64,000 nt of DNA, taken from positions 23,462-87,461 of IMG/VR virus record IMGVR_UViG_3300025133_009669; one strand, 5' to 3'. The notes under the pieces were generated by a model. It was not told the origin of the DNA. It worked only from the letters and a program-made list of their open reading frames with translations, and did not search any database. Shown piece after piece: positions 5,833 to 61,712 of the stretch. Within the stretch, counting starts at the first letter, position 1, and each line of letters starts with the position of its first letter. The DNA comes from a virus. Made by a program: the position numbers and the translations under genes.

Positions 5833-6120
5833 ATGGCTATCTATAAATATAGATGTAACCTCTGCTCCTCTGTAGAGGTATTTAATATTTCTATAAAAAA
5901 ATATGCGCAGTTAAGTCAGGAAGACGCTTTTGGCAAGATGATTTGCAAGAATTGTAACAAATTATCTGAGTTCACCAGAACCTTTGGGGTCTCTTCTAGT
6001 AAGATAGAAAAAGACAGAGAGGAGACGATGAGGCAGATAAAGGAAGACTCTAGAAGGATTGTTCAGAGTATTAAAAGCGGAAACACAAAAACCATCAGAA
6101 ATATTTACGGAGAAGAATAA
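5833..6120 (+). CDS. Zinc-ribbon protein (FmdB-like)
   Basis: 95 residues. The N-terminal half has two CxxC pairs (YRCNLCSS and ICKNCNKL) in the spacing of FmdB/CxxC zinc ribbons, starting with the typical MAIYKYRC. The C-terminal half is a charged helix. Such proteins are often small regulators. Its stop overlaps the start of prkA (TAATG), linking replication genes to the PrkA operon. Confidence 0.72.
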   Translation: MAIYKYRCNLCSSVEVFNISIKKYAQLSQEDAFGKMICKNCNKLSEFTRTFGVSSSKIEKDREETMRQIKEDSRRIVQSIKSGNTKTIRNIYGEE

Positions 6121-8039
6121 TGCCGCGGAAGAAAAAGAAGAGTCTTTTGGAGGCTCTGAGCAGCCACGTTAACGCAGAAAGCGCCTTGGAGTGGGAGGGT
6201 ACTTTGGCCGAGTATGTGGAGATGATTGTAGAGAGTCCCAGCCTGCATAGAAGCGCTCACCAGCGAGTTCTCGATATGATTGAGCTTGCTGGAACCGAAA
6301 GAAATGAGGATGGACTTATTACTAAGTATAAGTTTTTTGAGCAAGACTTATTTGGAATTGAAGAGTCTATTTCTGAGATAATGTCATATCTTCGGGCAGC
6401 GGCAGCCGGAAGTGAAGTCTCTAGGCGGATCCTTCTTATGTACGGCCCCACTTCATCCGGAAAGTCTCAGCTTGCAGTTCTCTTAAAGAAGGGTCTTGAG
6501 CATTACTCTAAGACAGACGCAGGAAGGACCTACTGCCTAACTGATTCTCCGATGTATGAGGATCCCCTGTGTGCGATTCCAATGGAGTTGCGCCCCAGGT
6601 TCAAAGAGGAGTATGGAATTAAGATAGACGGAGTTCTTAGTCCATACATGGATCTCGTTCTCAGGGAGACTTATGGCGGAGACTTCCTCAAGCTCCCCGT
6701 TAAGCGATTCTTTTTCTCAGAACAGTCCCGAGTTGGAATCGGAACCTTTGTTCCATCAGATAAGAAGAGCCAAGATATTTCAGAGCTAGTTGGCTCCATG
6801 GATCTTAGTAAGATTGGAGAATATGGCTCAGAATCAGACCCTAGAGCGTATCGATTCGACGGAGAGCTAAACGTAGCAAATCGAGGTGTTATGGAATTCG
6901 TTGAGATGCTCAAGGTAGATCAGAAGTTCCTATATGTGCTCTTAACTCTTGCGCAAGAAAAGAATATCAAGACTGGCCGCTTCCCATTTATATATGCCGA
7001 TGAGTTCTTGCTTGCACATAGTAATGAGACCGAGTACATGAGGTTCTTGGCAAAGGATGAAATGGAAGCGCTTCATGATAGGATTATTGTTGTCAAGGTT
7101 CCTTACAACCTAACTGTTTCAGAGGAAATAAGGATTTACGAGAAGCTAATTGGCCAAGCACGGTTTGACGGAGTTCATATTGCACCATATACACTACATT
7201 GCGCAGCAATGTTCGCAGTTCTGTCTCGTCTAAAGGATTCAAAGCATGAAGGTCTAACCAACTTGAGCAAGATGAAGCTTTACGATGGAGAAGATGTAGA
7301 GGGATTCTCCAAGGTTGATGTTCCTGTTCTTAAACGAGAGTTTGATGCGGAAGGTATGACTGGCGTTTCTCCGAGATATGTTATAAACAGAATTTCTTCG
7401 ATGCTAGCAGAAGAAGGATCTGATTGCGTCACTCCAATCGACGTGATTAGGGCAATTCGAGATGGCTTTAGCAGCAACCCCAAGCTAGATAGAAAAGAAA
7501 TCGACAGACTAGAGAACATTCTTACTACAGTTATTGAAGAATATAGCAAGATGGCTAGAAATGAGGTTCAAAAGGCATTCTTCGTCAACTTTGAAGAAGA
7601 AGTTCAGAGTCTGCTTTCAAATTACATGGATCATGTAGGAGCATATCTTGATAACACTAATCTTCTAGATGATTGGGGTGAGCCGAGCGAACCTAATGAA
7701 AGGCTTATGCGCTCAATTGAAGAGAAGGTTGGTATTTCCGAGACAGGAAAGAAGTCTTTCCGCCAAGAAGTCTACCGTAAGATGCTTCGCTCTGCCTCTG
7801 CAGGGGGCAAGGATTACAACTACAAGGATCACGTCAAGCTTCGTGAGGCTCTGGAGAAGCAGCTCTTCGATGAGAGGCAGGATGTAATTAGGCTAACTGT
7901 TAGCACAAGAAACCCCGATGAGGACGAGCTAAAGAAAATTAATGTTGTAATAAAGACTCTATGCGATAAGCATGGATACACCGCTAAGAGCGCGAATAAG
8001 CTGTTGAGGTACGTAAGCTCATTGATGGCCAGGAACTAA
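6120..8039 (+). CDS. prkA: PrkA-family serine protein kinase (AAA+)
   Basis: 639 residues, full length for PrkA. Walker A GPTSSGKS is at residues 109-116, followed by YCLTDSPMYEDPL, ADEFLLAHSNETEY and the Arg-rich PrkA regions (TGVSPRYVINRIS). The C-terminal PrkA domain is complete. In bacteria PrkA works with YeaH (DUF444) and SpoVR in sporulation, stationary phase or nitrogen stress, and both partners follow here. The gene is 1 base from yeaH. Finding the whole module on a phage-like contig is unusual. Confidence 0.9.
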   Translation: MPRKKKKSLLEALSSHVNAESALEWEGTLAEYVEMIVESPSLHRSAHQRVLDMIELAGTERNEDGLITKYKFFEQDLFGIEESISEIMSYLRAAAAGSEVSRRILLMYGPTSSGKSQLAVLLKKGLEHYSKTDAGRTYCLTDSPMYEDPLCAIPMELRPRFKEEYGIKIDGVLSPYMDLVLRETYGGDFLKLPVKRFFFSEQSRVGIGTFVPSDKKSQDISELVGSMDLSKIGEYGSESDPRAYRFDGELNVANRGVMEFVEMLKVDQKFLYVLLTLAQEKNIKTGRFPFIYADEFLLAHSNETEYMRFLAKDEMEALHDRIIVVKVPYNLTVSEEIRIYEKLIGQARFDGVHIAPYTLHCAAMFAVLSRLKDSKHEGLTNLSKMKLYDGEDVEGFSKVDVPVLKREFDAEGMTGVSPRYVINRISSMLAEEGSDCVTPIDVIRAIRDGFSSNPKLDRKEIDRLENILTTVIEEYSKMARNEVQKAFFVNFEEEVQSLLSNYMDHVGAYLDNTNLLDDWGEPSEPNERLMRSIEEKVGISETGKKSFRQEVYRKMLRSASAGGKDYNYKDHVKLREALEKQLFDERQDVIRLTVSTRNPDEDELKKINVVIKTLCDKHGYTAKSANKLLRYVSSLMARN

Positions 8040-8040
8040 C

Positions 8041-9228
8041 ATGTCCAAAAAGTCAGGTACAGGCGAAGGCCTGTCAGACATATGGAGGCTTAAGCAAAGA
8101 GGAAAGAGAGACTCCGATAGGCATAAAAAGCTTATCAACGATGCCATTAGGAAGAACGGAAAGGATCTGATTACAGAATATAATATTATTCAATCAGATG
8201 GCGATAAAAAGATTAAAGTTCCAATTCGTTTTTTGGATCGCTATAAGTTTAAATATGGAAAGCTTAAGGATAGATCTGGAACAGGTCAGGGGCTTGACGT
8301 AAATTCTGGGGATAAATACCGAATAAAAAAAGGCAAGAAAAAGGCCAAAGCAGGAAATAAGGCAGGAGACAAAGAGGGAGAGATTGCTTTTGAGGCAGAA
8401 GTTTCTATAGACGAGCTTGTAGATATTCTTTTGGATGAACTAAACCTTCCTTGGATGGAGCCGAATAAAAGTTCTGCAATAGAAGTAGAGACGGAAGAGC
8501 TAGCCTCTGTGGAAAGAAAGGGTATATATCCAGATTTAGATCTAAAGAAAACATTGATCGAAAATCTAAGGCGAAATGCGGCCAAGGGTGACGCCAAAAT
8601 TGGTGGGATTAATGAAAACGACTTAAGATATAGGTCGTGGGAGACTAACACAGAATATCATTCAAATGCTGCGGTATATCTTATGATGGATCGAAGCGGC
8701 TCTATGAGTGAAGAGAAGCGTTATATAGCCAAGAGCTTTTACTTTTGGATGGTCCAGTTTCTCAAAAGACGATATAAGAAGATAACCCTGGTTTTTATTG
8801 CTCACGACACCAAAGCTCATAAGGTAGAGGAGAAGGACTTCTTTAACGTTACAAGCGGAGGCGGCACCAAGTGTAGCTCTGCCTTTAAGATGGCGTACGA
8901 ACATATGGTCGCAAACCATCCTCCTGAGACATATAATAACTACGTTTTTGAATTTTCAGACGGAGATAATTTTGGCGTTGACAACCAATTGGTCTTAGAG
9001 TATGTAGAGAAGATGCTGCCACTTGTTCGGGCTATAGGCTATGGTGAAATTATTCCAGATGACGAATACACATGGAGCACTGAAGAGAATCGGCTATCAA
9101 CTCTTTTAGAAAAAGAGGTAAAGAGAACGAGGTTTGTTTCTATTCGAGTTACCTCTAGAGATCAGGTTTTTGATGCGCTTAAAATGTTCTTTAATATCGA
9201 TGGTAAGGCTGTAAAGGCAAAAACATAA
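8041..9228 (+). CDS. yeaH: YeaH/YhbH family protein (DUF444, VWA domain)
   Basis: 395 residues. The N-terminal part is basic and ends near an acidic linker. The C-terminal VWA domain carries the MIDAS motif DRSGS at residue 217 onward, then TSGGGTKCSSAF and FEFSDGDNF. This is the DUF444 pattern of YeaH and YhbH, which act as partners of the PrkA kinase. It directly follows prkA. Confidence 0.88.
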   Translation: MSKKSGTGEGLSDIWRLKQRGKRDSDRHKKLINDAIRKNGKDLITEYNIIQSDGDKKIKVPIRFLDRYKFKYGKLKDRSGTGQGLDVNSGDKYRIKKGKKKAKAGNKAGDKEGEIAFEAEVSIDELVDILLDELNLPWMEPNKSSAIEVETEELASVERKGIYPDLDLKKTLIENLRRNAAKGDAKIGGINENDLRYRSWETNTEYHSNAAVYLMMDRSGSMSEEKRYIAKSFYFWMVQFLKRRYKKITLVFIAHDTKAHKVEEKDFFNVTSGGGTKCSSAFKMAYEHMVANHPPETYNNYVFEFSDGDNFGVDNQLVLEYVEKMLPLVRAIGYGEIIPDDEYTWSTEENRLSTLLEKEVKRTRFVSIRVTSRDQVFDALKMFFNIDGKAVKAKT

Positions 9229-9269
9229 ATATATAGCGTTTAATTGTCACGGTTTAGCGGTCTGAATCA

Positions 9270-11033
9270 ATGAAGAAAAAAGAAATAAATCTTGACATTT
9301 TACGAAAGCTCTATGTCGATGAGCGACTGTCTTCTGTTAAAATCGCAAAGAAGATGGATGTATCTTCAACTACGATATTGAAGGCTCTTAAAGACAATGG
9401 AATAATTAGACCTCCACTGCTTTGCGACGACAAAGCGTGGCTTAAGCGTCAATATATAGAGCTCAATAAAAGCTGCAGAACGATATCAGAAGAAAATAAT
9501 ATAAAGAAGCATATTGTTTCTTCGCGCATCAAAAGGTTTAAGCTGACAAAGAGCAAAGAAGACATTACTGCAGAGGCGAAAAGGGTGCGATCAAAGACAA
9601 ACTTAGAAAAGTTTGGACATAAAAACCCATTTCAGAACCAAGGCGTAAAAGATGCTATCCGCGAATCCTTTATGAGCAAATATGGGGTTGACCATCCAAT
9701 GAAAGACCCTACATACAGAGAGCGGGTAGAGGCCTCAAATCTGAAGAGATATGGAGTAAAAACTACACTCTTAGACTCGCAGGTTAAAGTTAAATCTGCA
9801 GAGACTAATCTTAAAAAATATGGGACACCAATTCCACAGCAATCTGACACTGTAAAGAGCAGGACTCGAAAGACTAATTTAGAAGCCTATGGTGTTGAGC
9901 ACTTTTATCAGAGCGAAGAGTTTAAGGCGTCTGCAGCAGAAACAAACCTGAAGAGATATGGCGTCAAAAATCCAATGCTCAATGCGGAGGTCAAAAGCAG
10001 AGCTCTTGCGAGCAGAGTGAAAGGCAACTCGGCAGAGACATCAGAAGTCTCCGGAGAGAAAGGATCTCACAAACTAATCTTTGGAGTCCCGGCCTTTGTC
10101 GTAGCTGAAAAGAATAAAATTCCATATAATACATTTAATCAATGGTTGAATAGAAGAATCTTTCCGCTATCCAAAGAAGACCTAGAGGTTTATCTAGAGG
10201 GATATAGGAGCAATGATACTTCTATCGAGATGACTCTATCAAGGGCCCTAAACCTTCCTCGCCATAATAAAAAGTTTGATAAAAAAAGATATCCAGATTT
10301 AAATTATAAGCCGGATTTTAAACTGTCAGATAAAATTGCGGTCAATGTTGATGGTCTTTATTGGCATTCCGAAAAGTTTAAAGACAAAAGATATCATTTT
10401 AAAATGCGGAAAGATTTCGAGAGTCATGGGCTGCATATGCTGCAGTTCCGCGAAGATGAGATCGACAATAAACTAGAGATTGTAAAATCGATTATAATGG
10501 CAAAATCTGGAAAGATTAGCAAAAGGCATTTCGCAAGAAAACTTAACTTGGTAGAGGTCTCAAATAGTGACGCAAGAGTCTTTCTCGACAAGACTCATTT
10601 AAAGGGTCATCTCGACGCAAAGCATATTGGTCTTAAGTCCGGCAATGATCTTATTATGATCATGTCCTATAAGATTTACTCCTCCAGGCTTAAGATTGAG
10701 CGACTGTCTTGTAAACTAAATACCATTGTTACTGGAGGCTTTTCTAAGCTTCTAAAGTTTTTAGAGAAAAAATTTTCAGATAATATTCGGCATGTAGATT
10801 ACTGGGTAGATCTCAGATATGGCACAGGTAATTTTTTAAGTAAGTTAGGGTTTTCCGCTGAGCGAGAAACGCTGGGTTTTGAGTGGACTGATACATATCA
10901 TGTTCATAATAGACTTAGGTGCGTTGCTAATAATAACGGGAACGGCAAGACTGAGGCAGAGTCTGGGAAAGAGCTTGGCTGGGTAAAGATTTATGACGCA
11001 GGCCAAAGGCTATGGACAAAGGAGCTGAGATGA
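9270..11033 (+). CDS. Homing endonuclease of the Vsr-like (EDxHD) type
   Basis: 587 residues. An N-terminal helix-turn-helix (SSVKIAKKMDVSSTTILKAL) is followed by about five repeats of the type LEKFGHKNPFQ and LKRYGVKNPML, which are DNA-binding modules seen in phage homing enzymes. Next is a PD-(D/E)XK/Vsr-like core: YKPDFKLSDKIAVNVDG, YWHSEKF, and LQFREDE. A further C-terminal domain may be a GNAT-like fold. It sits between yeaH and spoVR, breaking what is usually a continuous module, and its stop overlaps the spoVR start (ATGA). Confidence 0.75.
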   Translation: MKKKEINLDILRKLYVDERLSSVKIAKKMDVSSTTILKALKDNGIIRPPLLCDDKAWLKRQYIELNKSCRTISEENNIKKHIVSSRIKRFKLTKSKEDITAEAKRVRSKTNLEKFGHKNPFQNQGVKDAIRESFMSKYGVDHPMKDPTYRERVEASNLKRYGVKTTLLDSQVKVKSAETNLKKYGTPIPQQSDTVKSRTRKTNLEAYGVEHFYQSEEFKASAAETNLKRYGVKNPMLNAEVKSRALASRVKGNSAETSEVSGEKGSHKLIFGVPAFVVAEKNKIPYNTFNQWLNRRIFPLSKEDLEVYLEGYRSNDTSIEMTLSRALNLPRHNKKFDKKRYPDLNYKPDFKLSDKIAVNVDGLYWHSEKFKDKRYHFKMRKDFESHGLHMLQFREDEIDNKLEIVKSIIMAKSGKISKRHFARKLNLVEVSNSDARVFLDKTHLKGHLDAKHIGLKSGNDLIMIMSYKIYSSRLKIERLSCKLNTIVTGGFSKLLKFLEKKFSDNIRHVDYWVDLRYGTGNFLSKLGFSAERETLGFEWTDTYHVHNRLRCVANNNGNGKTEAESGKELGWVKIYDAGQRLWTKELR

Positions 11034-13621
11034 ACAAGGTATTGAGCGAAAGAGTTAAGATTCTAGAAAAAGAAGGCCGAGAGCTTGGCCTAGATTTTTA
11101 TCCAATTATTTATGAGGTGGTGCCGCAGGAGACTATGCTTGAAATAATGAGCTATGGTCTGCCAACTAGGGCTAGGCATTGGTCCTATGGGCAGTCTTAT
11201 GAATACCAGAAGATGCAGGGGGAAATGGGGTTCTCCAAGGTTTATGAGGTCATTCTTAATAACGACCCCTCTTATGCCTTCCTCTTAGACACCAATTCTG
11301 ATGTAATAAACACTCTTGTGATAGCACACGTACTCGGCCACTCACATTTTTTTAAAAATAACTATTTATTCAAGCAAACCGATAATAAAATGGTTTATCA
11401 CGCTGCCGAGCGGGCGCAAAGGATAGAGGGATACATAGAAAGATTCGGAATTGATGCGGTCGAGAGAACTATGGATATAGGATTTGCCCTTGATAGGCAT
11501 ATTGACTGGCATAAGGGCGTTCACAGAAAGCTCTATGAGAAAGAATCGAAGTTCTATAAAGATAGGGAGGTTGATGAGTTTTCAGACTTATTAGATGAAA
11601 AAGGTTTTTCGAAAGTGGAGGTAAAACCTGAGAACAAATTCCCTCCAGCTCCCGAGTTCGATATATTATGGTTTTTGATTAATTACTCTAAGAGCCTTGA
11701 ACCGTGGCAGGTCGATGTGCTTGATATCATTAGGAAAGAGTCATACTATTTTTATCCTCAGTATCTCACAAAGACAATGAATGAAGGACTTGCCTGTGTT
11801 ACGGGAGATTCCCTAGTATTTACTGAGCAAGGAATTCTTCCAATGGAAGATCTTGTCAAGGGTGATGCAAAGTTTGTAAATGATAATGAGACTAATAGAC
11901 TTATTCTTGCCAGAAGTGCTATGGGGGAAAAGCGTTGCATAAAGATAACTACAAAGCGTGGTTACGAAATATGTGGTGCAGATAATCATAAAATCCTTTC
12001 CAATGGAGAGTGGGTAGAGCTTCAGGACTTGTCGCTAGGAGATCGTGCAGATCTTGCTGTTGGAGCCCAAATTTGGTCAGAAGAGTATAGAGAAATTATT
12101 TATAATAAGAAAAGAAGAGAAAAGACGATAGCTGACGTCGCGGCTCTTGCCGGAGTATCGTCTGGAACTATTTGCCGAAGACTAAGGGGAAAGAATGTTT
12201 TGAATTCAGATCATATAGATTCTTTTATTAAAATTTATAAGGAAGAAAAGGCAGATCCAGACTTCAGAAGTAATTTAGGAAATATGGGAGAGTTTTCTAT
12301 TCCAAAAATTGTGGACGAAAAACTAGGCCGCTTCTTAGGACTTCTGGTTGGAGATGGCCATATATCTAGGGCGAACAGAAGCTTTGGTCTGACCTCAGGC
12401 GATAAAGTCCAAGCTGAAGAGTTTAGAGATTTAGCAAAAAGCCTGTTCGGCGTAAAGACAAAGATCAAAAAAGATGAGGGAAGATATAGGGCGAACTGCT
12501 ACTCTGAAGGCGTTTCTAATTTTCTAGAAAATTACATAGGATGCACGACAGGCGTGTCTGCTAGAAGAAAGAATGTTCCGAAATCTATAATGGAATCTCC
12601 AAAGAGCGTAATGTCCGCCTTTATCAGTGGCTTATTCGACGCAGACGGATGTGCTCATAAAGGTGGAATAACATTTGTTTCATCCAGCAAATCTATGGTG
12701 AAGAATCTTCAAATAATCTTAACTAATTATAATATCATATCGAGTAGGAATCTAAGAAAGGACGAGACATATGCTTTGACTATAGGTGGGATTTCAGCAA
12801 AAAGATTTTATGACCAGATTGGGTTTGGCCTAACACGAAAGCAGGAGGTCCTTAAGACCTATATTTTTGATAGAAAGTGGTTTTGCAAAGAGAATTCCTT
12901 TGACTCCATATCTAAAATAGAAGAGCTTAAAGAAGTGGTTTATGATATCTCTGTAGAGAAGACTCATAGGTATTCTTCAAATGGCTTTATAAATCATAAC
13001 TCACTCACACATGCCGAATTGATGTTTTCAACAGACTGCATAAATCATTCTGAGCATCTAAACTTTTGCAAAGTTCACGAAAAAGTTGTTCAGCCTGGAG
13101 GGAACAAGCTTAATATCAATCCTTATTTCCTTGGGTTTTCAATATTTGGAGACATTATAAAGAGGTGGGATGCAAAGAAGGAGGCTGGCGAGTCCGAAAT
13201 AGGAGGCTGGGAAAAAGTTTTTCAGGTGGTCCAAGATGAAGACGACATTTCCTTCATCAGAAATTATCTGACAAAAGAGTTGGCGGAAGAGCTAAAATTG
13301 TTTACATATGTAGGGATGAAGATGGCCTCGGGTGACGAGGCGATTCACATCGTCGGAACAGAGCTGGATATAATAAAGGAATCTTTGGTTAAAGACCTTT
13401 ATCATTATCGGGCCCCCCTAATCTGCATTACGTCTATAGAAGATGGCGTCTTGCAGTTGCAACATAAGAGCGGAGATATTGGAACTTTAGATTACAAGCA
13501 CTTGGAAGCTACGCTAGAGTACATCTACGAGGCTTGGGGCGCTCCGGTAAATATTGAGACGGTAGATTCGAGAGGAAACCCAACCCACTTCACCTATGAC
13601 GAATTAGGTTTTGGTGGATAA
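11030..13621 (+). CDS. spoVR: SpoVR family protein with an intein
   Basis: The start at 11030 follows AAGGAGCTGAG; an upstream ATG at 11012 is weaker. Spliced length is about 461 residues, close to SpoVR/YcgB. Family signatures are LPTRARHWSYGQSYE near the N-terminus, the region with IAHVLGHSHFFKNN, and TMNEGLA, after which an intein (11795-13000) interrupts before SLTHAELMF. SpoVR proteins are co-encoded with PrkA and YeaH; their biochemical role is poorly known. The C-terminal part is conserved and intact. Confidence 0.9.
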   Translation: MNKVLSERVKILEKEGRELGLDFYPIIYEVVPQETMLEIMSYGLPTRARHWSYGQSYEYQKMQGEMGFSKVYEVILNNDPSYAFLLDTNSDVINTLVIAHVLGHSHFFKNNYLFKQTDNKMVYHAAERAQRIEGYIERFGIDAVERTMDIGFALDRHIDWHKGVHRKLYEKESKFYKDREVDEFSDLLDEKGFSKVEVKPENKFPPAPEFDILWFLINYSKSLEPWQVDVLDIIRKESYYFYPQYLTKTMNEGLACVTGDSLVFTEQGILPMEDLVKGDAKFVNDNETNRLILARSAMGEKRCIKITTKRGYEICGADNHKILSNGEWVELQDLSLGDRADLAVGAQIWSEEYREIIYNKKRREKTIADVAALAGVSSGTICRRLRGKNVLNSDHIDSFIKIYKEEKADPDFRSNLGNMGEFSIPKIVDEKLGRFLGLLVGDGHISRANRSFGLTSGDKVQAEEFRDLAKSLFGVKTKIKKDEGRYRANCYSEGVSNFLENYIGCTTGVSARRKNVPKSIMESPKSVMSAFISGLFDADGCAHKGGITFVSSSKSMVKNLQIILTNYNIISSRNLRKDETYALTIGGISAKRFYDQIGFGLTRKQEVLKTYIFDRKWFCKENSFDSISKIEELKEVVYDISVEKTHRYSSNGFINHNSLTHAELMFSTDCINHSEHLNFCKVHEKVVQPGGNKLNINPYFLGFSIFGDIIKRWDAKKEAGESEIGGWEKVFQVVQDEDDISFIRNYLTKELAEELKLFTYVGMKMASGDEAIHIVGTELDIIKESLVKDLYHYRAPLICITSIEDGVLQLQHKSGDIGTLDYKHLEATLEYIYEAWGAPVNIETVDSRGNPTHFTYDELGFGG
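11795..13000 (+). other. Intein in SpoVR with an intact LAGLIDADG endonuclease (402 aa)
   Basis: Starts with Cys (CVTGDSLVFTEQGI) and ends FINHN before Ser +1. Block B is ICGADNHKIL. Two LAGLIDADG motifs look complete (FLGLLVGDGH and ISGLFDADGC), so the homing enzyme may be active. It also contains a LacI-like helix-turn-helix (IADVAALAGVSSGTICRRL), probably a DNA-recognition part of the enzyme. The site is the conserved MNEG(W/L)A segment of SpoVR. Confidence 0.92.
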
Positions 13622-13642
13622 TGAAGTAGACAGGAAGGAATA

Positions 13643-14203
13643 ATGACGATAGACGAGCAAACCTCCATGCCACCTGAGCCGCAAAGAAAGTTTTCTTCTG
13701 CTGATTTCTCTTTCCAGTTTAATGCTGCGAAGGAATATCTGAAGGCCGAAAAGAAAATCTTTAAAGTATTATGCGATATCTCCAAGGAGAATAGGGCCAA
13801 GCCAAAGAGCTTGGGCATCCTTGTCGTTCTTGGAGTGTTTGATAGTGCAAATGAACATATAATTCCCGGCATGAGGCAGATAGGAATTAATCCTATTCAG
13901 AAATATATCAATATATGCGATGATTCCTTTAAAAAGGATATCGCTACAATATTTCGAGAAGGAGCAGACGGCGCTATTATTATCAATAGAGATGGGCAAG
14001 TTATCGGAACCAAAGTCTATCTGGTTGTAGATGATTCTTCTCTGGAGGTTCCGGATGGCTGCGGAACTAGGCACATTAGTGCTGCGTCATTCTCCACTAG
14101 GGAGGACGTGCTTGCCGCCTTTACGCTTTCCGAGGAGAGTTCAATCGTAAGAAATTGGAAGAAGGGTTCGTTCGTAGAGCAGTATAACCCTGCCGATGAA
14201 TAA
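13643..14203 (+). CDS. Probable diadenylate cyclase (DisA_N/DAC domain)
   Basis: 186 residues, ribosome site AAGGA. The domain spans about residues 45-178. It begins LGILVVLGVFD, then shows the DGA motif (ADGAIIINRDG), a strand ending KVYLVV, the GTRH motif (CGTRHISAAS) and SEESSIVRNWKKGSF. This follows the order and spacing of DisA_N enzymes that make c-di-AMP from two ATP (DGA, then RHR, then SEE plus G). The third residue of RHR is Ile; archaeal-type relatives also vary there. There are no membrane helices and no DisA C-terminal DNA-binding part. It is last in the prkA-yeaH-spoVR operon, 21 bases after spoVR. I am fairly sure of the fold, less sure of activity. Confidence 0.72.
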   Translation: MTIDEQTSMPPEPQRKFSSADFSFQFNAAKEYLKAEKKIFKVLCDISKENRAKPKSLGILVVLGVFDSANEHIIPGMRQIGINPIQKYINICDDSFKKDIATIFREGADGAIIINRDGQVIGTKVYLVVDDSSLEVPDGCGTRHISAASFSTREDVLAAFTLSEESSIVRNWKKGSFVEQYNPADE

Positions 14204-14491
14204 TAAAAAAAATTTACATTAATAATCAAAGAAAAATTTAAGGAAAGAATATTTTATTTATATTTTGAAGCAGAAATCTTCTATTTAAAATGCTTTTGTA
14301 TATATTTGGCCAAGTCCATTTCTGCATATAAAAATGATATCAAATACTCTTAATAACAAAATTTTTTACAAATTTAAATAATAGACGAATAGCCACCATA
14401 GTCGGTGGCTTATTTTTTATGCAATTAAAGAATCGTTAGGGCGGGCCACCTTTAACAATTATGGGCTAATGGCCTGCAAGTGGAGAGAAAA
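14204..14491 (+). promoter_or_regulatory. AT-rich intergenic region before the RNR gene
   Basis: A 288-base gap without a gene. The first half is very AT-rich, with long A and T runs that may include a promoter. A terminator-like hairpin lies at 14391-14419. The RNR ribosome site GGAG is at 14482-14485. This is the main break between the PrkA operon and the next transcription unit. Confidence 0.5.
14391..14419 (+). terminator. Intrinsic terminator after the PrkA-DAC operon
   Basis: Stem AGCCACC / GGTGGCT with a 6-base loop, followed by TATTTTTTAT. This has the form of a rho-independent terminator on the + strand. Confidence 0.8.
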
Positions 14492-16105
14492 ATGGAATTG
14501 GCGTCAAAAATTTTATCTGATATAACCGTGCATATGAAATACGCACGATATCTCGATTCTGAGAACAGGAGAGAGAACTGGGAAGAGCTTATTGCAAGAA
14601 GCGAGAATATGCATATTAAGAAGTTCCCCCATTTAAAGGATGAAATTAAAAAGGCGTATAAATTCGTATATGATAAGAAAGTTCTTCCGTCGATGCGCGT
14701 CCTCCAGTTTGGAGGTAAGCCAATTGAGATTGCGCCAAATAGAGCCTATAATTGCGGGTATTTGCCGATTGACGACATTCGGGCTTTCAGCGAAACAATG
14801 TTCCTTCTTCTTGGTGGAACAGGAATTGGATACTCTGTTCAAAAGCACCACGTTGAGCAGCTTCCTGAAATCAGGAAGCCTAATCCGAAAAGAACAAGGC
14901 GTTTTTTAATCGCAGACTCTATTGAGGGTTGGGCGGATGCCGTTAAGGCTTTAGTGAACTCTTATTTCAGAGAGACATCTAAGCTTCGATTTGATTTCTC
15001 CGATATTCGTCCTAAGGGCGCAAATCTGGTCACGTCTGGAGGCAAAGCTCCGGGCCCTCAGCCGCTAAAGGAGTGCTTAGTGAGGCTAGAGGGCATCCTC
15101 GATTCAAAAGAGACTGGAGACAGGCTCAGCCCCATAGAAGTCCATGATATGATGTGTTATATTGCGGATGCTGTTTTGGCTGGAGGCATTAGAAGGGCGG
15201 CATTGATTGCTCTGTTTTCTGCGGATGATGAAGAAATGATATCTTCAAAGTCAGGAAACTGGTCTGAGGCAAATCCTCAGCGGGGAAGAGCAAACAACTC
15301 CGTTGTCTTAATGAGGCATAGAATTAAGAAGGAATACTTCATGTCTCTCTGGGAGAAGATTAAGGCCTCTGGGGCGGGAGAGCCTGGTTTCTACTTTACA
15401 AATGACAAGGACTGGGGTTGTAATCCATGTTGCGAAATTGGCTTAAAGCCTTTTCAGTTTTGCAATCTTGTTGAAATAAACGCCTCTGATCTAGTCGACC
15501 AAGAGGACTTTAACTCTAGAGCCAAAGCTGCGTCATTCATCGGAACCCTCCAAGCCAGCTATACAGACTTTCATTATTTGAGGCCAATATGGCAAAGAAC
15601 AACCGAAAAGGATGCTCTCTTAGGAGTTAGTCTGACGGGCATTGCAAGCGGAAGAGTATTGGAGTTAGATGCGACATATGCCGCAGGAGTAGTTGGCGAA
15701 GAAAACATTCGAGTGGCTAACCTGCTAGGCATAAACCCCGCAGCAAGAACAACCTGTATCAAGCCTGCTGGCTGTCAAGTTCCATCCTCTGTGATTAGAA
15801 CTTCAGAGGGAGATATGAGTCTGCATGATATCTTCGCAAAGAACGGAATTGATTTAAGTGACCATCTAGATGAATATAGAGAGTGGTATGACGTTACTTC
15901 TGACATAAAAGTTCCGAATCAAAATGGTGAAATGAATTCCATAACAAGGTTGTTCGTAAATGGATTCGAAGAGTCTATCCGATTTACAATGGAGGATGGC
16001 TCCACTATAGAGTGTACGCCACATCACAAATTCATGATGGCCGATGGAGAATGGAAGCAGGCAATCGATATTACAGAGGAAGACGACTGGATGCATGTAG
16101 GGTAA
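14492..16105 (+). CDS. nrdJ: Class II (B12-dependent) ribonucleotide reductase, N-terminal part, fused to a split-intein N-half
   Basis: The start at 14492 is 6 bases after GGAG; a GTG at 14480 is weaker. The extein has the N-terminal redox Cys region AYNCGYLPI, FLLLGGTGIGYSVQ, the NPCCEIGL active-site loop with the presumed thiyl Cys, and CNLVEINASDL. It stops at TTCIKPAG. From 15773 the frame continues as the N-half of an intein and ends with a stop. Converts ribonucleotides to deoxyribonucleotides once joined in trans to the product of 16186-16869. No nrdB is seen, which fits class II. Confidence 0.87.
   Translation: MELASKILSDITVHMKYARYLDSENRRENWEELIARSENMHIKKFPHLKDEIKKAYKFVYDKKVLPSMRVLQFGGKPIEIAPNRAYNCGYLPIDDIRAFSETMFLLLGGTGIGYSVQKHHVEQLPEIRKPNPKRTRRFLIADSIEGWADAVKALVNSYFRETSKLRFDFSDIRPKGANLVTSGGKAPGPQPLKECLVRLEGILDSKETGDRLSPIEVHDMMCYIADAVLAGGIRRAALIALFSADDEEMISSKSGNWSEANPQRGRANNSVVLMRHRIKKEYFMSLWEKIKASGAGEPGFYFTNDKDWGCNPCCEIGLKPFQFCNLVEINASDLVDQEDFNSRAKAASFIGTLQASYTDFHYLRPIWQRTTEKDALLGVSLTGIASGRVLELDATYAAGVVGEENIRVANLLGINPAARTTCIKPAGCQVPSSVIRTSEGDMSLHDIFAKNGIDLSDHLDEYREWYDVTSDIKVPNQNGEMNSITRLFVNGFEESIRFTMEDGSTIECTPHHKFMMADGEWKQAIDITEEDDWMHVG
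15773..16105 (+). other. N-terminal half of a split intein (110 aa)
   Basis: Begins with Cys (CQVPSSVIRTSEG) directly after KPAG, carries block B (ECTPHHKFMM) and ends shortly after, at DDWMHVG and a stop. The length matches the N-halves of naturally split inteins such as NrdJ-1. No endonuclease remains between the halves. Confidence 0.85.
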
Positions 16106-16185
16106 TTTGCCATTATAAACATTTGGGATAGCGACTGGCAAACAAATAGGGATAATGTAAAGCAGATGCTTAAGGACATAATAAA

Positions 16186-16287
16186 ATGAAAATAGTAAAA
16201 AAAGAAGTAACACAATCATTTACAGTAGATATAGAAGTTGAGAATACGCCTGTTTACCAGATGGCAAACGGATGCGTTTCTCACAAT
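16186..16287 (+). other. C-terminal half of a split intein (34 aa)
   Basis: Begins at its own ATG and ends NGCVSHN before Thr +1 of the extein. Contains FTVDIEVENTPVYQMANG, which is block F, and HN, which is block G. The size fits known split-intein C-halves. The 80 bases before it hold an imperfect TTTGCCA / TGGCAAA inverted repeat. Confidence 0.85.
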
Positions 16288-16869
16288 ACTACTTCACTTA
16301 CACTGGGCACTTCCTCTGGAATTCATGCATGGCATAATGATTTTTACATAAGAAGGCTTCGCGTTGGAAAGAACGAGTCTATCTATTCTTATCTTGAGAA
16401 TAATCATCCAGAGCTTATCGAAGATGAATTCTTTAGACCGCATGATACTGCCGTGATTTCAGTGCCTCAGAAGGCACCCGCAGGAGCTATTACGCGAAGT
16501 GAAACGGCGACTGATCTGCTTGAAAGAGTGAAAAGAATGACAGTTGACTGGGTTAATCCCGGCTATCGAAAGGGTCAAAACACGCATAATGTTTCTGCCA
16601 CAATTACTGTGAAAAATGATGAATGGGATACCGTTGCAGATTGGATGTGGGAAAATAGGGACGTGTATAATGGCCTATCTATTCTTCCGCATTCAGAGCA
16701 TACGTATGTTCAGCCCCCATTCGAAGATTGTACGGAAGAAGTCTACAATGAGATGATGCACTCTCTAAAAGAAGTGAGAATAGAGAGCGTTTTGGAAGAG
16801 ACAGATAATACAGATCTTTCGGGAGAGCTGGCCTGCTCAGGGGGATCGTGTTCGATCTCTTACTTATAG
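16186..16869 (+). CDS. nrdJ: Class II ribonucleotide reductase, C-terminal part, preceded by a split-intein C-half
   Basis: Starts with a 34-residue intein C-half (16186-16287), then the extein TTSLTLGTSSGIHAWH, FYIRRLRVGK, and the C-terminal redox tail ACSGGSCSISYL (C-x4-C type). It is in a different frame from the upstream part and has an in-frame stop at 16171-16173, so it is translated separately; AAGGA lies at a fair distance before the ATG. Protein trans-splicing with the 14492 product would give a reductase of about 620 residues. Confidence 0.87.
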   Translation: MKIVKKEVTQSFTVDIEVENTPVYQMANGCVSHNTTSLTLGTSSGIHAWHNDFYIRRLRVGKNESIYSYLENNHPELIEDEFFRPHDTAVISVPQKAPAGAITRSETATDLLERVKRMTVDWVNPGYRKGQNTHNVSATITVKNDEWDTVADWMWENRDVYNGLSILPHSEHTYVQPPFEDCTEEVYNEMMHSLKEVRIESVLEETDNTDLSGELACSGGSCSISYL

Positions 16870-16893
16870 GGCATAAACCGTAGGGAGCTTGTT

Positions 16894-19596
16894 TTGAGAA
16901 AGTTAATTGCGCTAAATAAATGGCTAAAGACTAATGGCCTGAAGAGAGAATCTCTCTCTATTTCTAGTCTGAATAAGCTATATAAGTATGCTGTCTCAAG
17001 AGCAGAGATAGCAGACCTGAAAGACTGGCTAGATGACGATTATTCGCAACTAAGTTTCGATGAGCTTTTTAAAGGCAAACTTCGTTTGGTGATTCCGTTT
17101 AATACGAAAGAAGATAGGCAGCTCTTGAGCCTTGTCCCTTTTCTAAAGGAGACTGGATGGCTTCCGGCTGGTAGAGGAAGTTCGTTTAACACGAAGAAAG
17201 TTAAGCAGAAAATGCGCAGACCTGATACCGGAGAGGAGTATGAAGAAGAAGTTGAAGTTGCAGACCTGAAGATTTCTAAAGAAGAAAAAAGAGTAATTCC
17301 CGCTGGCCCAAGAAAGGGCGAAGAAATTACAAGAGAAAAGATTTTGTCTATTTCTAAGGTTTTATCTGATCCGAAAAATAATGCACCTGTTGGAATGGCG
17401 GATTGGTGGAAGGGTAAGCAAACAGAGTATACAAGGGACTATAATTGGAAGCAAATTGAGTCCGTCTTTAAAGACGGAGACCTTAAAGCAGAGCATTCGA
17501 TTATTATATCTAGAGATCCGATTGACGTACTTAGGATGAGTGACTATGAAAATATACGCTCCTGCCATAGTGAGCATGGATCTTACTTTAATTGTGCAAT
17601 CTCAGAGTCAAGAGGCAATGGCCTAGTTGCCTATCTGGTTAAGAGTTCTGATTTAGAAGAAGCCTTGAATCCCCCAAGTCACTGGAGTGAAGATGCGGCG
17701 GCGCAAGACGAGCAGCAGAGGGGCATCCAGATAGGAGATCTGGATGGACAAGAAATATTCGCAGATAGAGGAAGGGAGGTCTTAGGCGTAACTCCCAAGT
17801 CTAGGGTTAGGCTGCGAAAATATGTAGATACAGCTAGAGATTATGAGTTTGCCGCTCCAGAAAATAGAACATATGGACCACACCCTCCTGGTTTTATAGA
17901 TTTAGTTAGAAATTGGGCATGGCAGCAGCAGAAGCACCTGTTCGAAAATAACGGAGAAATATCCTTGCCCAATCAAGGTAATTTGCAAATGCACGGAGGA
18001 TCGTATAGAGATACGTATGATGGAGACATATTGAACTCATTCTTCGAAGAGGGATGCGATTATGCAGATTATCGTGGAAATGTAACAACTATATCTTCTA
18101 ACGAAGAAAGCACGTATGAAATGTGGGTTGCTGAAATTGAAGAAATATTGGAAGATGCCGAGGCTACTCTCGAACATGTCTCTTTTTCATCAGAGGTTGA
18201 TGATGATGGAGAAGGGAATCCATACTTATATGCACACGCTTATTTGAGCTATAGCCTTCCTCTTTACGGATGGGAAGAAATATCTATTGAGAATAGGTTT
18301 GCTAAAACAAATAATCCGCTTATAAGAGATATCCCGGTTAGTTACGATTATGATTTTGAAAAATTGTTTGACCATCCGGAAGGTGGGGAAGTTGTTTCAG
18401 TAGAGTTAAATGAGAAAACTAAGTCTATAGATATCTCCATTGAGTTTTCTTGTGATAGCTGTTATAATCCAGATGATGTAGAGGAGTATTTCGAATATAT
18501 AAGAGATAGTATTGATTCGAAGTATTTAGAATATGTTGAGTCAGTTAGAAGGAAACTAGTTGCGGCAGAATATATAGAGGGGCTTGAATTTGATCGAGCA
18601 ATAATCCGACTTGAAGATATGGAGTTTGAGAACTTTGTAATGCTTGATGTAGAAGAGGACGAGTCGGAAATAAAAGTAAATATGAAGCCGAAAGCGACGC
18701 TTTTTAAGTTACAAATTCCATATGCCATTAAGAATAGTCCAGTACCCTTTGAGCCTAAAGACTTTGCAAAAATATTTGATGCAGAAGTTATTTCTACTTG
18801 GGTAAAAAGTTTTCGACTGAATAATGTTTCCAAGATTATTGGAAGCACGCTAGATAAGCTTGCGGCCCAAGAGAATCAGGACAAATTGCAGCTTCGTTTC
18901 GACTTTCTCCCTGAACCTGAAGCCTCTCCTAGTTTGGGGGCGCTTTTGGATGTAGACAGAATTCTTACGGCTAATCTTTTCTTAGCAGATACGGCCGTCT
19001 ATGTAGAGCTTTCATTTTCCCTACAAACTTCTCATACGAATGATGAAATTTTACTTATAGAAAAGTTCATTAAGGTCTTTGACGAAAACTTTCATTTAAT
19101 AGGAAGAGCCTTTGAGGACTATTTGGCACAGAGGCTTGCGAAAGCTGGAGTTGAAGCCAAAGGCATATCAAAGAATTTTTTCTCAGGAGAGCTGGCAAAG
19201 CCAATCATAGAGCGTCTAAAAAAATCTTCTACGAATGACGTTAGAAGATTAGCCACTTGGATTGAGGCAAATTGGAACGTCTTTAGCAACGCAGAGAAGG
19301 ATCTTGCTTATAATAAATATCTTCTTCCGACCGAAAGATATGGAGACTATATACACGATCATAACTTGGATTGGCCAAATTCTTGGAACTCAGAAATGCA
19401 GAAAAGAAAAGATACTGATATAGGATATAGATGGAATGGTCTTTCGATGAAAGATGTTTCTTTGCAATCTAATCAGATTATGCCAGAAGAAGAGAGAGAA
19501 GGGGGTCTTTCGGAAGATTCACATGTAGATACGCTCGAAGAAAATTCCGAAGCAGAACAAGACGCAGAGCAGGAAGGCGCCTCAACTATAGTCTAA
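16894..19596 (+). CDS. Large hypothetical protein (900 aa)
   Basis: Probable TTG start at 16894 behind AGGGAG. Not assigned to a named family. Residues around 210-250 hold an ordered block, IRSCHSEHGSYFNCAI then GLVAYLVKS, followed by acidic, strand-rich sequence and an acidic Glu-rich C-terminus. No signal peptide or membrane helix. It follows the reductase by 24 bases. Proteins with the same SCHS...C core seem to occur in other large phages, but I give no function. Confidence 0.75.
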   Translation: MRKLIALNKWLKTNGLKRESLSISSLNKLYKYAVSRAEIADLKDWLDDDYSQLSFDELFKGKLRLVIPFNTKEDRQLLSLVPFLKETGWLPAGRGSSFNTKKVKQKMRRPDTGEEYEEEVEVADLKISKEEKRVIPAGPRKGEEITREKILSISKVLSDPKNNAPVGMADWWKGKQTEYTRDYNWKQIESVFKDGDLKAEHSIIISRDPIDVLRMSDYENIRSCHSEHGSYFNCAISESRGNGLVAYLVKSSDLEEALNPPSHWSEDAAAQDEQQRGIQIGDLDGQEIFADRGREVLGVTPKSRVRLRKYVDTARDYEFAAPENRTYGPHPPGFIDLVRNWAWQQQKHLFENNGEISLPNQGNLQMHGGSYRDTYDGDILNSFFEEGCDYADYRGNVTTISSNEESTYEMWVAEIEEILEDAEATLEHVSFSSEVDDDGEGNPYLYAHAYLSYSLPLYGWEEISIENRFAKTNNPLIRDIPVSYDYDFEKLFDHPEGGEVVSVELNEKTKSIDISIEFSCDSCYNPDDVEEYFEYIRDSIDSKYLEYVESVRRKLVAAEYIEGLEFDRAIIRLEDMEFENFVMLDVEEDESEIKVNMKPKATLFKLQIPYAIKNSPVPFEPKDFAKIFDAEVISTWVKSFRLNNVSKIIGSTLDKLAAQENQDKLQLRFDFLPEPEASPSLGALLDVDRILTANLFLADTAVYVELSFSLQTSHTNDEILLIEKFIKVFDENFHLIGRAFEDYLAQRLAKAGVEAKGISKNFFSGELAKPIIERLKKSSTNDVRRLATWIEANWNVFSNAEKDLAYNKYLLPTERYGDYIHDHNLDWPNSWNSEMQKRKDTDIGYRWNGLSMKDVSLQSNQIMPEEEREGGLSEDSHVDTLEENSEAEQDAEQEGASTIV

Positions 19597-53406: not shown

Positions 53407-54306
53407 ATGGCAAAGTCGATTCGTGAAACCGAAGTCGAAATCGCGGAAGCTCTCATCGAGGCAATCGAGAATGCCGAGGATGGTGGAAAGTGGGTCATGC
53501 CCTGGGATTCCTCCAATGGAATCCCCACGAACGCCACGACGAATCGCGCCTACAGCGGCGGATTCAATTACTTCGTCCTGATGATGGGCGGTCTGAGGTT
53601 CGGTGACAACCGCTGGGCGGGGGCCTCTCAATGGAAGAAGGCCAAGAACCTCGTCCGAAAGGACGAAAAGGGAACCGGGATTTATTTCCCGCGATTCAAG
53701 TGCGCGAAGTGTCAGGCCCCGGTGGGCTGGGGCAAGAAGTGCAAGAGGGGCCACCCGGTCGTCAAGGCTGCGGACAAGACGTTTTCCGGCTGGGGCTCCA
53801 GCTACGTTTTCAACAATCAGCAGACTCAGAACCCTCTGCCCTCCGCTGAGGCCCGGAACGTGGACCCGAGTGTGGGATTTGAGGCGGCGGCAGAAATCGT
53901 CGCAAAGATGGGCGCAGACATTCGGCACGGTGGAAGCCAAGCCTTCTACAGCGTGAAAAAGGATTACATTCAGCTTCCCGAAGCGGGGGCTTTCAAGGAG
54001 ACTGCGGACTACTGGGCGACGAACCTGCACGAGCACGCACATTGGACCGGAGCAAAGAGCCGTCTGAACCGCGATGGAATCGTGAACTTCACGTCCTTCG
54101 GAACTGCCGACTATGCCTATGAGGAACTGGTGGCGGAAATGGGAAGTGCGTTCGTGTGTAAGCACATCGGCGTCGAGCGAGAAGGCCTGTTCGATAACCA
54201 CGTTGCATACCTCTCCCATTGGAAGAAGAAGCTGCGGGAGGAGCCGGGAGTCGTGCGGAAGGCTGCGAACGAAGCTGGGGCAGTTATGAGGTTTTTGCTC
54301 AAGTAA
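53407..54306 (+). CDS. ardC: ArdC-like antirestriction protein
   Basis: 299 residues, AGGAG site. The N-terminal DUF1738-type domain has MPWDSSNGIPTNATTNRAYSG; the C-terminal zincin domain carries HEHAHWTG (HExxH) and YEELVAEMGSAF with the third ligand. ArdC proteins bind single-stranded DNA and protect incoming DNA from restriction enzymes. A small zinc-knuckle-like insertion (CAKCQAPVGWGKKC) sits in the first domain. Expected to act right after DNA entry. Confidence 0.87.
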   Translation: MAKSIRETEVEIAEALIEAIENAEDGGKWVMPWDSSNGIPTNATTNRAYSGGFNYFVLMMGGLRFGDNRWAGASQWKKAKNLVRKDEKGTGIYFPRFKCAKCQAPVGWGKKCKRGHPVVKAADKTFSGWGSSYVFNNQQTQNPLPSAEARNVDPSVGFEAAAEIVAKMGADIRHGGSQAFYSVKKDYIQLPEAGAFKETADYWATNLHEHAHWTGAKSRLNRDGIVNFTSFGTADYAYEELVAEMGSAFVCKHIGVEREGLFDNHVAYLSHWKKKLREEPGVVRKAANEAGAVMRFLLK

Positions 54307-57805: not shown

Positions 57806-57997
57806 ATGTTTTCTCCTGATGAAAAGGCCGCCGAAAAGGCGGGCAAAGACGCGCACACAAGCGGAATGAGCAGAGATAGGAATCCGCATCAGCCAAAGAC
57901 AATGCTTTGGATGTGTTGGAATCTTGGTTGGGACCTTTCTCGAAAAAGAGAAATTCAAGCTTTGGAAGGAATTTATCATGGATATTCAGGGCTTTAG
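57806..57997 (+). CDS. RMF-like small protein
   Basis: 63 residues. AGKDAHTSGMSRDRNPHQPK and WMCWNLGWDLSRK follow the G..A...G....NP.......W..GW pattern of ribosome modulation factor and related phage proteins. RMF drives ribosome dimerisation in bacteria; a phage version could change host translation. Similarity is short. Overlaps the RNA ligase start by 20 bases. Confidence 0.6.
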   Translation: MFSPDEKAAEKAGKDAHTSGMSRDRNPHQPKTMLWMCWNLGWDLSRKREIQALEGIYHGYSGL

Positions 57998-59096
57998 AGA
58001 AGCGGCAGAAGAAGGAATGCTCAAGAGGTCTATTAAGGGGCCTTTTGAGCTTTTCAATTACACTCAAAAGGCAACGGTTGCGGGCGCGTGGACGCCTGTA
58101 ACGATGGAGGCTCGCGGGGTTGTTTTTCAGGACGGTCAAATCGTTTGTCGTCCAATGAGAAAGTTTTTCAATCCGCATGAAACTGGGGCAGGTGAAGTTT
58201 TTGCCCCGAATCTGGCGCTCGTCAAGCTGGACGGAACCCTGATTAACGTCTGGTTCGACTTGAGCGGAAACATGCATGTTTCCACACGCGGAAGCCTTGA
58301 GAACGAATACATCGACGGAGCATGGAAGATTATTCGGGAAAGAAATCTTGAAGAAATGCTCTCTATGCACCATGATGTGACGTGGAGCTTTGAATATACT
58401 TACCCTCAGAGTCGCTTTTCAAATCCCAGCGTAATTCCGCATGACAAGGAGAGGCTTACTCTTTTGAATATGCGTATGCGTGATGGAGAGGAGATAGATG
58501 CCGCTATGATTCCCGAATACAATTCGGTAATCTATGCTGACTCAAGCCATTACTATGACCTAGCTGTGTCGGATAGTGGCGAAGGTTTGGCAGAACGAAT
58601 GGCTGGACTTGCCAAGGTTTTGCCCTGGCGGGATGAGGGATGGGTTTTGTCGGTTTTTGACGAAGGAAGGAATCACCGAATCAAGGTAAAAGGAAATCAG
58701 TATGTTGCAATGCACCGAGTCATTCATGGACTGAGGGGTCGAGCCGTTGCCGATGCTTGGTATGCAGAAATGCAGGAAGAATTGGCAGAAATGCTTTACG
58801 AGCCTCATTCGTCTATTCTCTTGGAGAATTTCTCTGAGTATGACCGTGAGTATGCCCGCGCGCAAGATGTGGTGCACGAATGGGTTTCTGGTTATGCAAA
58901 GATTGCGGACATTGAAAATCGAAAGGACTTTGTAATCCAGGCTCAAAAGGAAATCCCTGAGTATTGGCAGCTTGCTATTACTGAGCAGTTTTCAAATAAG
59001 GAGCCGGATTACAAGCTCTTTGTTGTAAAGAAGATTACGGGAAAGAATCCCAGGGCTTGGAGTCTGCCAACAACAGATGACGTTGCCCCTGAATGA
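57978..59096 (+). CDS. RNA ligase of the T4 Rnl1 type
   Basis: 372 residues from the ATG after GGAAGGA. Motif I is LVKLDGTLI (KxDG, Lys takes AMP). Before it are MEARGVVF and RPMRKFFNPHE. Motif IIIa region WSFEYTYPQSRF, motif IV DEGWVLSVFD and motif V RIKVKGNQYV follow. In T4, Rnl1 reseals tRNA cut by host anticodon nucleases. Grouped with an RMF-like gene, suggesting a translation-protection unit. Confidence 0.85.
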   Translation: MDIQGFREAAEEGMLKRSIKGPFELFNYTQKATVAGAWTPVTMEARGVVFQDGQIVCRPMRKFFNPHETGAGEVFAPNLALVKLDGTLINVWFDLSGNMHVSTRGSLENEYIDGAWKIIRERNLEEMLSMHHDVTWSFEYTYPQSRFSNPSVIPHDKERLTLLNMRMRDGEEIDAAMIPEYNSVIYADSSHYYDLAVSDSGEGLAERMAGLAKVLPWRDEGWVLSVFDEGRNHRIKVKGNQYVAMHRVIHGLRGRAVADAWYAEMQEELAEMLYEPHSSILLENFSEYDREYARAQDVVHEWVSGYAKIADIENRKDFVIQAQKEIPEYWQLAITEQFSNKEPDYKLFVVKKITGKNPRAWSLPTTDDVAPE

Positions 59097-61090: not shown

Positions 61091-61166
61091 AGAAATGAAT
61101 AAAGCTTGAAGAAAAGTTCTTGTCAAGAGTTTGCCCGATATTAATATCGTACTACGGAGGGTTCCG

Positions 61167-61712
61167 ATGAAAGTTATTTTTCTTGATAATGATGGAGTCA
61201 TCTGTTTGCGTAGCAATTGGGGTTCTCGATTTAAGAAGCAAAAGAAGTACAAGGGCGACCTATCGGGGAGAGAGCGTCCTTTTGAAGTCCGAGCTGATAA
61301 CTTTGACAGAAAGGCCGTCAGGGTTCTGAATGAAATCCTAGAAGAAACCGGAGCAGAGATTATTATCTCCTCGGATTGGAGGAGACTTGGATCTCTTGAG
61401 GAGTTGCAAGAATATTATTTGACCCAGGGGATTGTCAAGGCTCCGGTTGGCTTGACGAAGATCTTTTCTAAGGTAAAGATTCCGGATCATTTCCCGTGGA
61501 ATAGAGGGTACTCGTCCGAACAAGAGCGTAGTTTGGAAATTTTGGACTGGCTATCTGATCACCCGGAGATTACACAGTGGGTTGCCGTGGATGATCTTGA
61601 TATGTCTACAAGAAATGGCTGGGGACTGAGCAATTTTGTTCATACTCCAATCGATACAGAGGGAATTAAGCAGACAGGAGTCAAGAAAAAAATTCTTGAC
61701 TCCCTAATTTAG
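61167..61712 (+). CDS. HAD-family phosphatase (RNA-repair-type)
   Basis: 181 residues from the ATG after GGAGGG. KVIFLDNDGVI holds the DxDG nucleophile motif; IIISSDWRR and WVAVDDLDM supply the later motifs. The pattern resembles HAD domains found in Swiss Army Knife RNA-repair proteins. With the ligase at 57978 it may heal broken RNA ends (inference). Confidence 0.75.
   Translation: MKVIFLDNDGVICLRSNWGSRFKKQKKYKGDLSGRERPFEVRADNFDRKAVRVLNEILEETGAEIIISSDWRRLGSLEELQEYYLTQGIVKAPVGLTKIFSKVKIPDHFPWNRGYSSEQERSLEILDWLSDHPEITQWVAVDDLDMSTRNGWGLSNFVHTPIDTEGIKQTGVKKKILDSLI

Follow-up and report, generated by a model that had tools for sequence, protein, structure and literature searches.

A 64,000-nucleotide stretch of viral DNA (hereafter the window; bases 23462–87461 of the 87,461-bp IMG/VR virus record IMGVR_UViG_3300025133_009669) carries genes for PrkA, YeaH (DUF444), SpoVR and a diadenylate cyclase (DAC)-type protein in that order, as identified with Pfam. 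This array is not a chance arrangement because all related contigs that extend into the region show the same order. We propose that the block sets the physiological state of the infected cell, with a stress-protein module and synthesis of cyclic di-AMP (c-di-AMP) as its working parts, and we give this explanation as a whole a probability of about 0.5. The gene block and the enzyme family are established by sequence, which does not decide among the roles weighed below. Many bacteria depend on c-di-AMP as an essential second messenger and are harmed when it is overproduced or lost. We came across no description of a viral enzyme for its synthesis. The conserved block, carried by a family of large environmental phages, suggests that these viruses reset host physiological state through a second messenger. 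A conserved phage DAC behind the poorly understood PrkA-YeaH-SpoVR genes, with a sigma factor adjoining in relatives, would be a natural experiment on two open questions: the biochemical role of PrkA, YeaH and SpoVR, and whether phages steer their hosts via second messengers. Both are testable with small soluble proteins.

Conservation of the block among phages

The order PrkA-YeaH-SpoVR-DAC is kept in 14 further viral records from about 12 lineages (L003, L007/L009, L008, L010, L011, L012/L017, L013/L014, L015, L016, L018 and L024). The initial annotation of the window had suggested a search for co-occurrence of these proteins in viral genomes, and the syntenic records reveal a conserved neighbourhood. 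Identities in these relatives are 69–88% for PrkA and 43–83% for the DAC. Searches with PF02457 return exactly one DAC in each of 14 of the 26 PrkA-bearing viral records, at 44–51 bits, and it directly follows SpoVR in every DAC-bearing relative. The only close relative without a DAC is L019, whose contig stops inside PrkA. PF02457 was not found in the distant PrkA-YeaH-SpoVR contigs L020–L022, L025–L027 and L030, several of which are fragments, or in the PrkA-carrying Thermus and huge phages. A tree of 103 PrkA sequences, built with a quick method, places 11 DAC-bearing phages in one clade (Shimodaira–Hasegawa-like approximate likelihood-ratio support of 100) that neighbours sequences from Bacillota, Chloroflexota and Acidobacteriota. 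Other phage PrkAs are placed elsewhere in the tree and look like separate captures. The simplest reading is that the DAC was gained once, on the stem of this PrkA clade.

PrkA, YeaH and SpoVR had been described in the initial annotation as encoded in order. Pfam bears out the order; strict adjacency does not hold, with a homing endonuclease gene (9270–11033) lying between YeaH and SpoVR. This gene and an intein within SpoVR were both overlooked in that description. It is extremely improbable that the block is bacterial DNA or part of a chimeric contig instead of a phage operon. All four families are otherwise cellular and IMG/VR contigs are predictions, but the flanks carry phage DnaB, helicase loader, PhoH, endolysin, RNA ligase/tail-fibre attachment and homing endonuclease families, the arrangement recurs in contigs of up to 395 kb (including the 317-kb G019, which has a GpA-type terminase), and the PrkAs of these phages form a clade of their own. 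Bacterial contamination was rejected on these three grounds. In addition, a pattern scan of 84,980 bacterial and archaeal species, with one genome per species, returned no relative of the window DAC.

Family, motifs and fold of the cyclase

The 186-residue, soluble product of positions 13643–14203 (plus strand) matches the DAC family PF02457 with an E value of 1.6e-11 and 44.2 bits against a cut-off of 27. The match covers residues 55–176, and the protein ends about 10 residues beyond it. The DGA and GTRH motifs on which the initial annotation had based its assignment lie at residues 109–111 and 141–144, where a profile search against the PDB aligns them with CdaA; SEE lies at 163–165. The profile of 11 phage DACs finds CdaA with an E value of 1e-4 and with the DGA, GTRH and SEET columns aligned, and the conserved motif positions align with CdaA, DisA and DacZ. 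In a full-length alignment of the 11 phage sequences, which reaches down to 47% identity, D109, G110, G141-T142-R143-H144, S163 and E164 are invariant, and A111 is nearly so, with DGS replacing DGA in one relative. An AlphaFold2 model built on these 11 sequences has moderate confidence (mean predicted local distance difference test score 75; predicted template-modelling score 0.73). Foldseek comparison of the model with the PDB gives 50 top matches that are all DACs (CdaA, CdaM, DacA, DacM and DisA; E about 2e-7), with template-modelling scores of 0.59 by query length and 0.69 by target. The model resembles CdaA, CdaM and DisA, so that the predicted structure does not refute the DAC fold that had been anticipated for this protein.

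Among annotated sequences, the closest by tblastn are haloarchaeal DacZ proteins and plasmid-borne, stand-alone haloarchaeal DACs (best E about 5e-6, 26–28% identity). Phage DAC and DacZ are both soluble, have the DAC catalytic domain and align over the common signatures PxGxGTRHxxAA and LSExxxxVR; unlike DacZ, the phage protein is short, lacks the long DacZ N-terminal domain and is phage-borne beside SpoVR. A Haloplanus DAC of similar size sits amid TrkA and cation:proton antiporter genes. DacZ of Haloferax volcanii is a manganese-dependent diadenylate cyclase with c-di-AMP synthesis shown in vitro and a link to osmoregulation (PMC6741144). CdaA/DacA and DisA are like the phage protein in fold and in the DGA, GTRH and SE motifs (SE not in DisA), at low sequence similarity. 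CdaA differs in its transmembrane segment and CdaR partner: the phage protein has only two polar N-terminal helices, and its neighbours are SpoVR and a ribonucleotide reductase or sigma factor gene, not cdaR-glmM. DisA differs in its long C-terminal part with a DNA-binding domain, which is absent from the phage protein. Because these subfamily-specific parts are missing, we class the latter only as a member of the DAC family whose catalytic domain is DacZ-like, and assign it to no subfamily.

The 13643–14203 product is very probably an active c-di-AMP synthase. A divergent DAC-fold protein that makes no c-di-AMP, or another product, and is kept for another role is quite improbable. Its PF02457 scores of 44–51 bits compare with about 90–160 for most cellular CdaA and DisA proteins, it has GTRHIS where GTRHRA is common, and there is the DGS variant in one relative. 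Against loss of activity, D109, G110, GTRH and SE stay invariant across 11 sequences down to 47% identity, with synonymous sites saturated, and aligned haloarchaeal DacZ proteins also lack the RHR arginine (GTRHHA), while H. volcanii DacZ is active (PMC6741144). Saturation of synonymous sites between the window and L003 meant that no dN/dS value could be given, and the ratio of nonsynonymous to synonymous differences (pN/pS) was used in its place. This ratio is 0.11 for the DAC, 0.09 for PrkA, 0.11 for YeaH and 0.39 for the intein, and the DAC is, judged by such sequence comparison, under purifying selection.

PrkA, YeaH, SpoVR and inserted elements

All three stress proteins are confirmed by Pfam matches. 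PrkA (6120–8039, plus strand) has the AAA_PrkA domain (E 6.5e-116) and the PrkA C-terminal domain (E 9.4e-72), with the Walker A motif GPTSSGKS at residue 109. YeaH/YhbH (8041–9228, plus strand; DUF444, E 1.3e-83) has a VWA domain with intact metal-site motifs (DRSGS...GGGT...DGD). SpoVR (11012–13621, plus strand; E 5.9e-100) has the MNEGxA...H motif, which is split by the intein in the window and continuous in relatives. Stress roles are described for PrkA/YeaG (PMC4664914, PMC13001217), and YeaG aids adaptation of Escherichia coli to nitrogen starvation (PMC4664914). PrkA of Bacillus anthracis is described as an AAA+ ATPase with no detectable kinase activity and negligible protease activity (PMC13001217); by analogy, a kinase role should not be assumed for the phage PrkA.

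The SpoVR intein is a LAGLIDADG element (11795–13000; Intein_splicing and LAGLIDADG_3 matches) between an N-extein (11012–11794) and a C-extein (13001–13621), all on the plus strand. It starts with CVTGDS and ends with HN followed by S; together with the splicing-domain match, these ends predict that it splices. Its insertion site is the conserved MNEGxA/SxxHA motif of SpoVR, and intein-free relatives read through the junction. Further intein-like inserts occur in relatives, in PrkA after ADEFLLAHS (L018) and in the AHxxGH region of SpoVR (L012 and L018). Inteins usually occupy functionally constrained motifs, and from this we infer that their sites are an indirect sign that the genes of the block matter to the phage. 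The free-standing homing endonuclease at 9270–11033 (plus strand) has helix-turn-helix and Vsr/DUF559-like nuclease domains (Pfam; phrog_3339, E 5e-58) and is a passenger; related endonucleases lie at other positions in relatives.

Intein-like elements also occur outside the block. A class II ribonucleotide reductase, NrdJ, is present in the window as two open reading frames (ORFs; 14480–16105 and 16186–16869) that meet, across an 80-bp gap, at an intein-like junction. The N-terminal part ends with WMHVG, and the C-terminal part starts with MKIVKKEV and reads VSHN; the junction is a probable naturally split intein. L003 has a PhoH gene with apparently two inteins in a single ORF (14135–17896).

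Transcription unit and sigma factor

PrkA, YeaH, SpoVR and the DAC very probably form a single functional operon, as gauged from gene layout. The block genes all lie on the same strand, with short or overlapping junctions. PrkA is preceded in nearly all related loci by a gene for a zinc-ribbon-like protein (5833–6120, plus strand; 95 residues; a weak Zn_ribbon_8 match below the cut-off), which in the window shares one base with PrkA. The endonuclease and SpoVR genes overlap by 22 bases. The 21-base gap between SpoVR and the DAC holds a purine-rich stretch like a ribosome-binding site, AGGAAGGA (13632–13640, plus strand). An intrinsic-terminator-like hairpin, AGCCACCATAGTCGGTGGCT TATTTTTTAT (14391–14420, plus strand), begins 188 bases past the DAC and is a probable transcript end. 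It is the first-listed hairpin of the first 20 kb and has the most G-C pairs, in a region where terminator-like sites are only modestly above shuffled expectation (20 vs 13.3). Hairpins also follow the DAC in L003, L010, L012 and L018.

A sigma factor gene follows the DAC in six relatives (L007, L011, L014, L015, L016 and L024), with a start –8 to +3 bases from the DAC stop. These proteins have 178–191 residues and sigma-70 regions 2 and 4, with both regions above the Pfam cut-off in four of the six and one above and one below in the other two. In L018, the DAC is followed by a sigma pseudogene (39% identity over 95 residues, three stops), and no trace of a sigma gene was found after the DAC in the window or in L003. 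The six intact genes and the pseudogene are therefore most simply explained by an ancestral PrkA-YeaH-SpoVR-DAC-sigma operon, as reconstructed from present gene orders. The presence of a sigma factor also points to a bacterial host. There is precedent for phage sigma factors that change host sporulation or dormancy (PMC9429907). Those sporulation-like sigma factors resemble the present ones in that both could in principle redirect host developmental transcription; the sigma factor of the relatives differs in adjoining a DAC and the stress triad, and its class and promoter specificity are putative.

Proposed host-state control and its alternatives

Under the proposed explanation, the block, (zinc ribbon)-PrkA-YeaH-SpoVR-DAC with an ancestral sigma factor, would be co-transcribed and would determine the physiological state of the infected cell. 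Within it, the DAC would join two ATP molecules into c-di-AMP. PrkA as an AAA+ ATPase, YeaH with its VWA domain and SpoVR would cooperate as a joint remodelling machine for stress adaptation, much as in bacteria during starvation or sporulation. The most likely target of c-di-AMP would be host potassium, osmolyte and envelope control, its commonest role in bacteria and archaea. The stressed cell would thereby be kept intact and productive during infection, and in relatives the sigma factor would redirect RNA polymerase. The initial annotation had already suggested that the phage holds its host in a chosen state; the phage-borne module and the sigma gene overlapping or abutting the DAC in six relatives fit that part of its proposal. 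We put the odds that host-state control is the main purpose of the operon at roughly even. The fuller proposal, in which a large phage lineage would run its own c-di-AMP signalling from one host-reprogramming operon with a DacZ-like cyclase, PrkA-YeaH-SpoVR and a co-translated sigma factor, as the first viral c-di-AMP synthesis system, is more tentative and falls somewhat short of even odds.

Several results weigh against host-state control as the explanation of the linkage. DAC distances track those of PrkA (r = 0.88) and DnaB (r = 0.86), and synteny alone could therefore be vertical inheritance of the replication region; the linkage could partly reflect such descent, and the block is inherited together with the phage core. 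The sigma factor could be an ordinary late-gene factor unconnected to the DAC, and the window lineage lost it, so it is not indispensable. The c-di-AMP receptor family PF06153 was not found in 15 records, and no riboswitch or other RNA family was found in the window. Cells lend no independent support to a DAC-PrkA link. Most of 80 bacterial PrkA loci have YeaH and SpoVR beside PrkA in the same order, and none of the 80 matched the phage-DAC profile, which is only weakly sensitive to CdaA. Whole-genome PF02457 searches were added for that reason and found DACs, mostly of CdaA and DisA types, in 24 of 36 of those bacterial genomes. Module genes are absent from 30 short loci around cellular DACs, and the pattern scan of genome contigs from 84,980 species found no cellular donor of the DAC. 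Within the searched set, the triad is thus an ordinary cellular cluster, and only this phage clade links a DAC to it. Against pure inertia of the block stand reductase turnover and endonuclease entry: the slot downstream holds class II NrdJ in some phages and class I NrdAB or another reductase in others while the four genes keep their order, and homing endonucleases have inserted at several places with that order unchanged.

A second possibility is that c-di-AMP serves chiefly as ligand or timer of the phage PrkA-YeaH-SpoVR or sigma factor, with host targets secondary. The DAC occurs exactly in the clade whose PrkA-YeaH-SpoVR it follows, always directly after SpoVR, and the sigma gene overlaps or abuts it in six relatives. 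The partner proteins have no recognised c-di-AMP-binding domain, and phage triads occur without a DAC in Thermus phages and other contigs; we regard such a module-internal signal as a minority possibility. It is also rather unlikely that the DAC serves counter-defence, with phage c-di-AMP or a related dinucleotide flooding, competing with or mis-triggering cyclic-nucleotide immunity (e.g., sensors of the cyclic-oligonucleotide-based anti-phage signalling, CBASS, type) or with the protein binding such signals. Nucleotide signals have been proposed as targets of phage attack (jumbo phages, PMC7824862), the window encodes an ArdC-like anti-restriction protein, and larger relatives have a DHH-DHHA1 phosphoesterase beside a PurZ-like enzyme. 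The DAC is placed in a stress-protein operon and not among anti-defence genes, its conserved catalytic motifs speak against a pure sponge, and many bacteria use c-di-AMP for housekeeping signalling. The DHH-DHHA1 protein was considered as a candidate cognate phosphodiesterase for c-di-AMP. Its gene is unlinked to the DAC, and several records yielded no copy of it; it occurs in four large relatives (L056–L059, on G019, G009, G004 and G007) beside a short PurZ-like adenylosuccinate synthase, and this pair may signal base-modified (2-aminoadenine) DNA metabolism.

Precedents and closest known systems

No paper on a phage diadenylate cyclase was found in the open literature, with subscription papers and preprints outside the scope of the search. 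A jumbo-phage survey makes no mention of SpoVR, PrkA, DisA or diadenylate (PMC7824862). Searches of 50,697 phage records by tblastn with the DACs of the window and L012 gave no match. CdaA, DisA and DacZ queries matched unannotated records only; three of these have the chromosomal cdaA-cdaR-glmM arrangement, with an FGTDGVRG protein and a membrane-anchored protein adjoining, and look like host DNA, a reading that covers these three records. The yeaG-yeaH pair of Enterobacter phage LAU1 was likewise set aside because it looks like the host flank of a prophage.

The initial annotation knew of no description of the combination. For the triad this does not stand, with the triad or parts of it annotated in phages phiYS40, phiLo, MN1 and Lalka8 (the first three being the deposited precedents); no description of the DAC linkage was found, and linkage of the DAC and sigma factor to the triad appears undescribed. 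These Thermus phages carry a phage-borne stress triad or parts of it, but they differ in gene order, have separate PrkA lineages and gave no DAC in those of their records that were searched with PF02457. Ralstonia phage RsoM2USA also has SpoVR and PrkA (PMC8504454), with a separate PrkA lineage, and lay outside the PF02457 search. Bacterial PrkA-YeaH(YhbH)-SpoVR clusters share the three families, and most of the 80 loci also keep their order; unlike in the phages, no adjacent DAC was seen, and the homing endonuclease and intein load is not comparable.

Other features of the contig

Between 48000 and 58000 of the window, GC content rises from about 0.39 to 0.50–0.56, GC skew is near zero and long overlapping ORFs occur on both strands; the stretch looks like recently acquired or chimeric DNA. 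The ArdC-like anti-restriction protein (53407–54306) lies within it. A HAD domain of the Swiss-army-knife RNA repair type (61131–61712) is encoded near a T4-type RNA ligase (57924–59096). Upstream of the window on the same contig, an 800-residue ORF (L046, 7916–10318) combines a glycosyltransferase domain with a tubulin/FtsZ GTPase domain and is a possible fusion or assembly artefact. Inspection by eye of L045 and L046 (G000, bases 1–24500) reveals a long run of apparent sugar-nucleotide, glycosyltransferase and GlmS-like genes, an apparent surface-glycan cluster that is unusually large for a phage contig.

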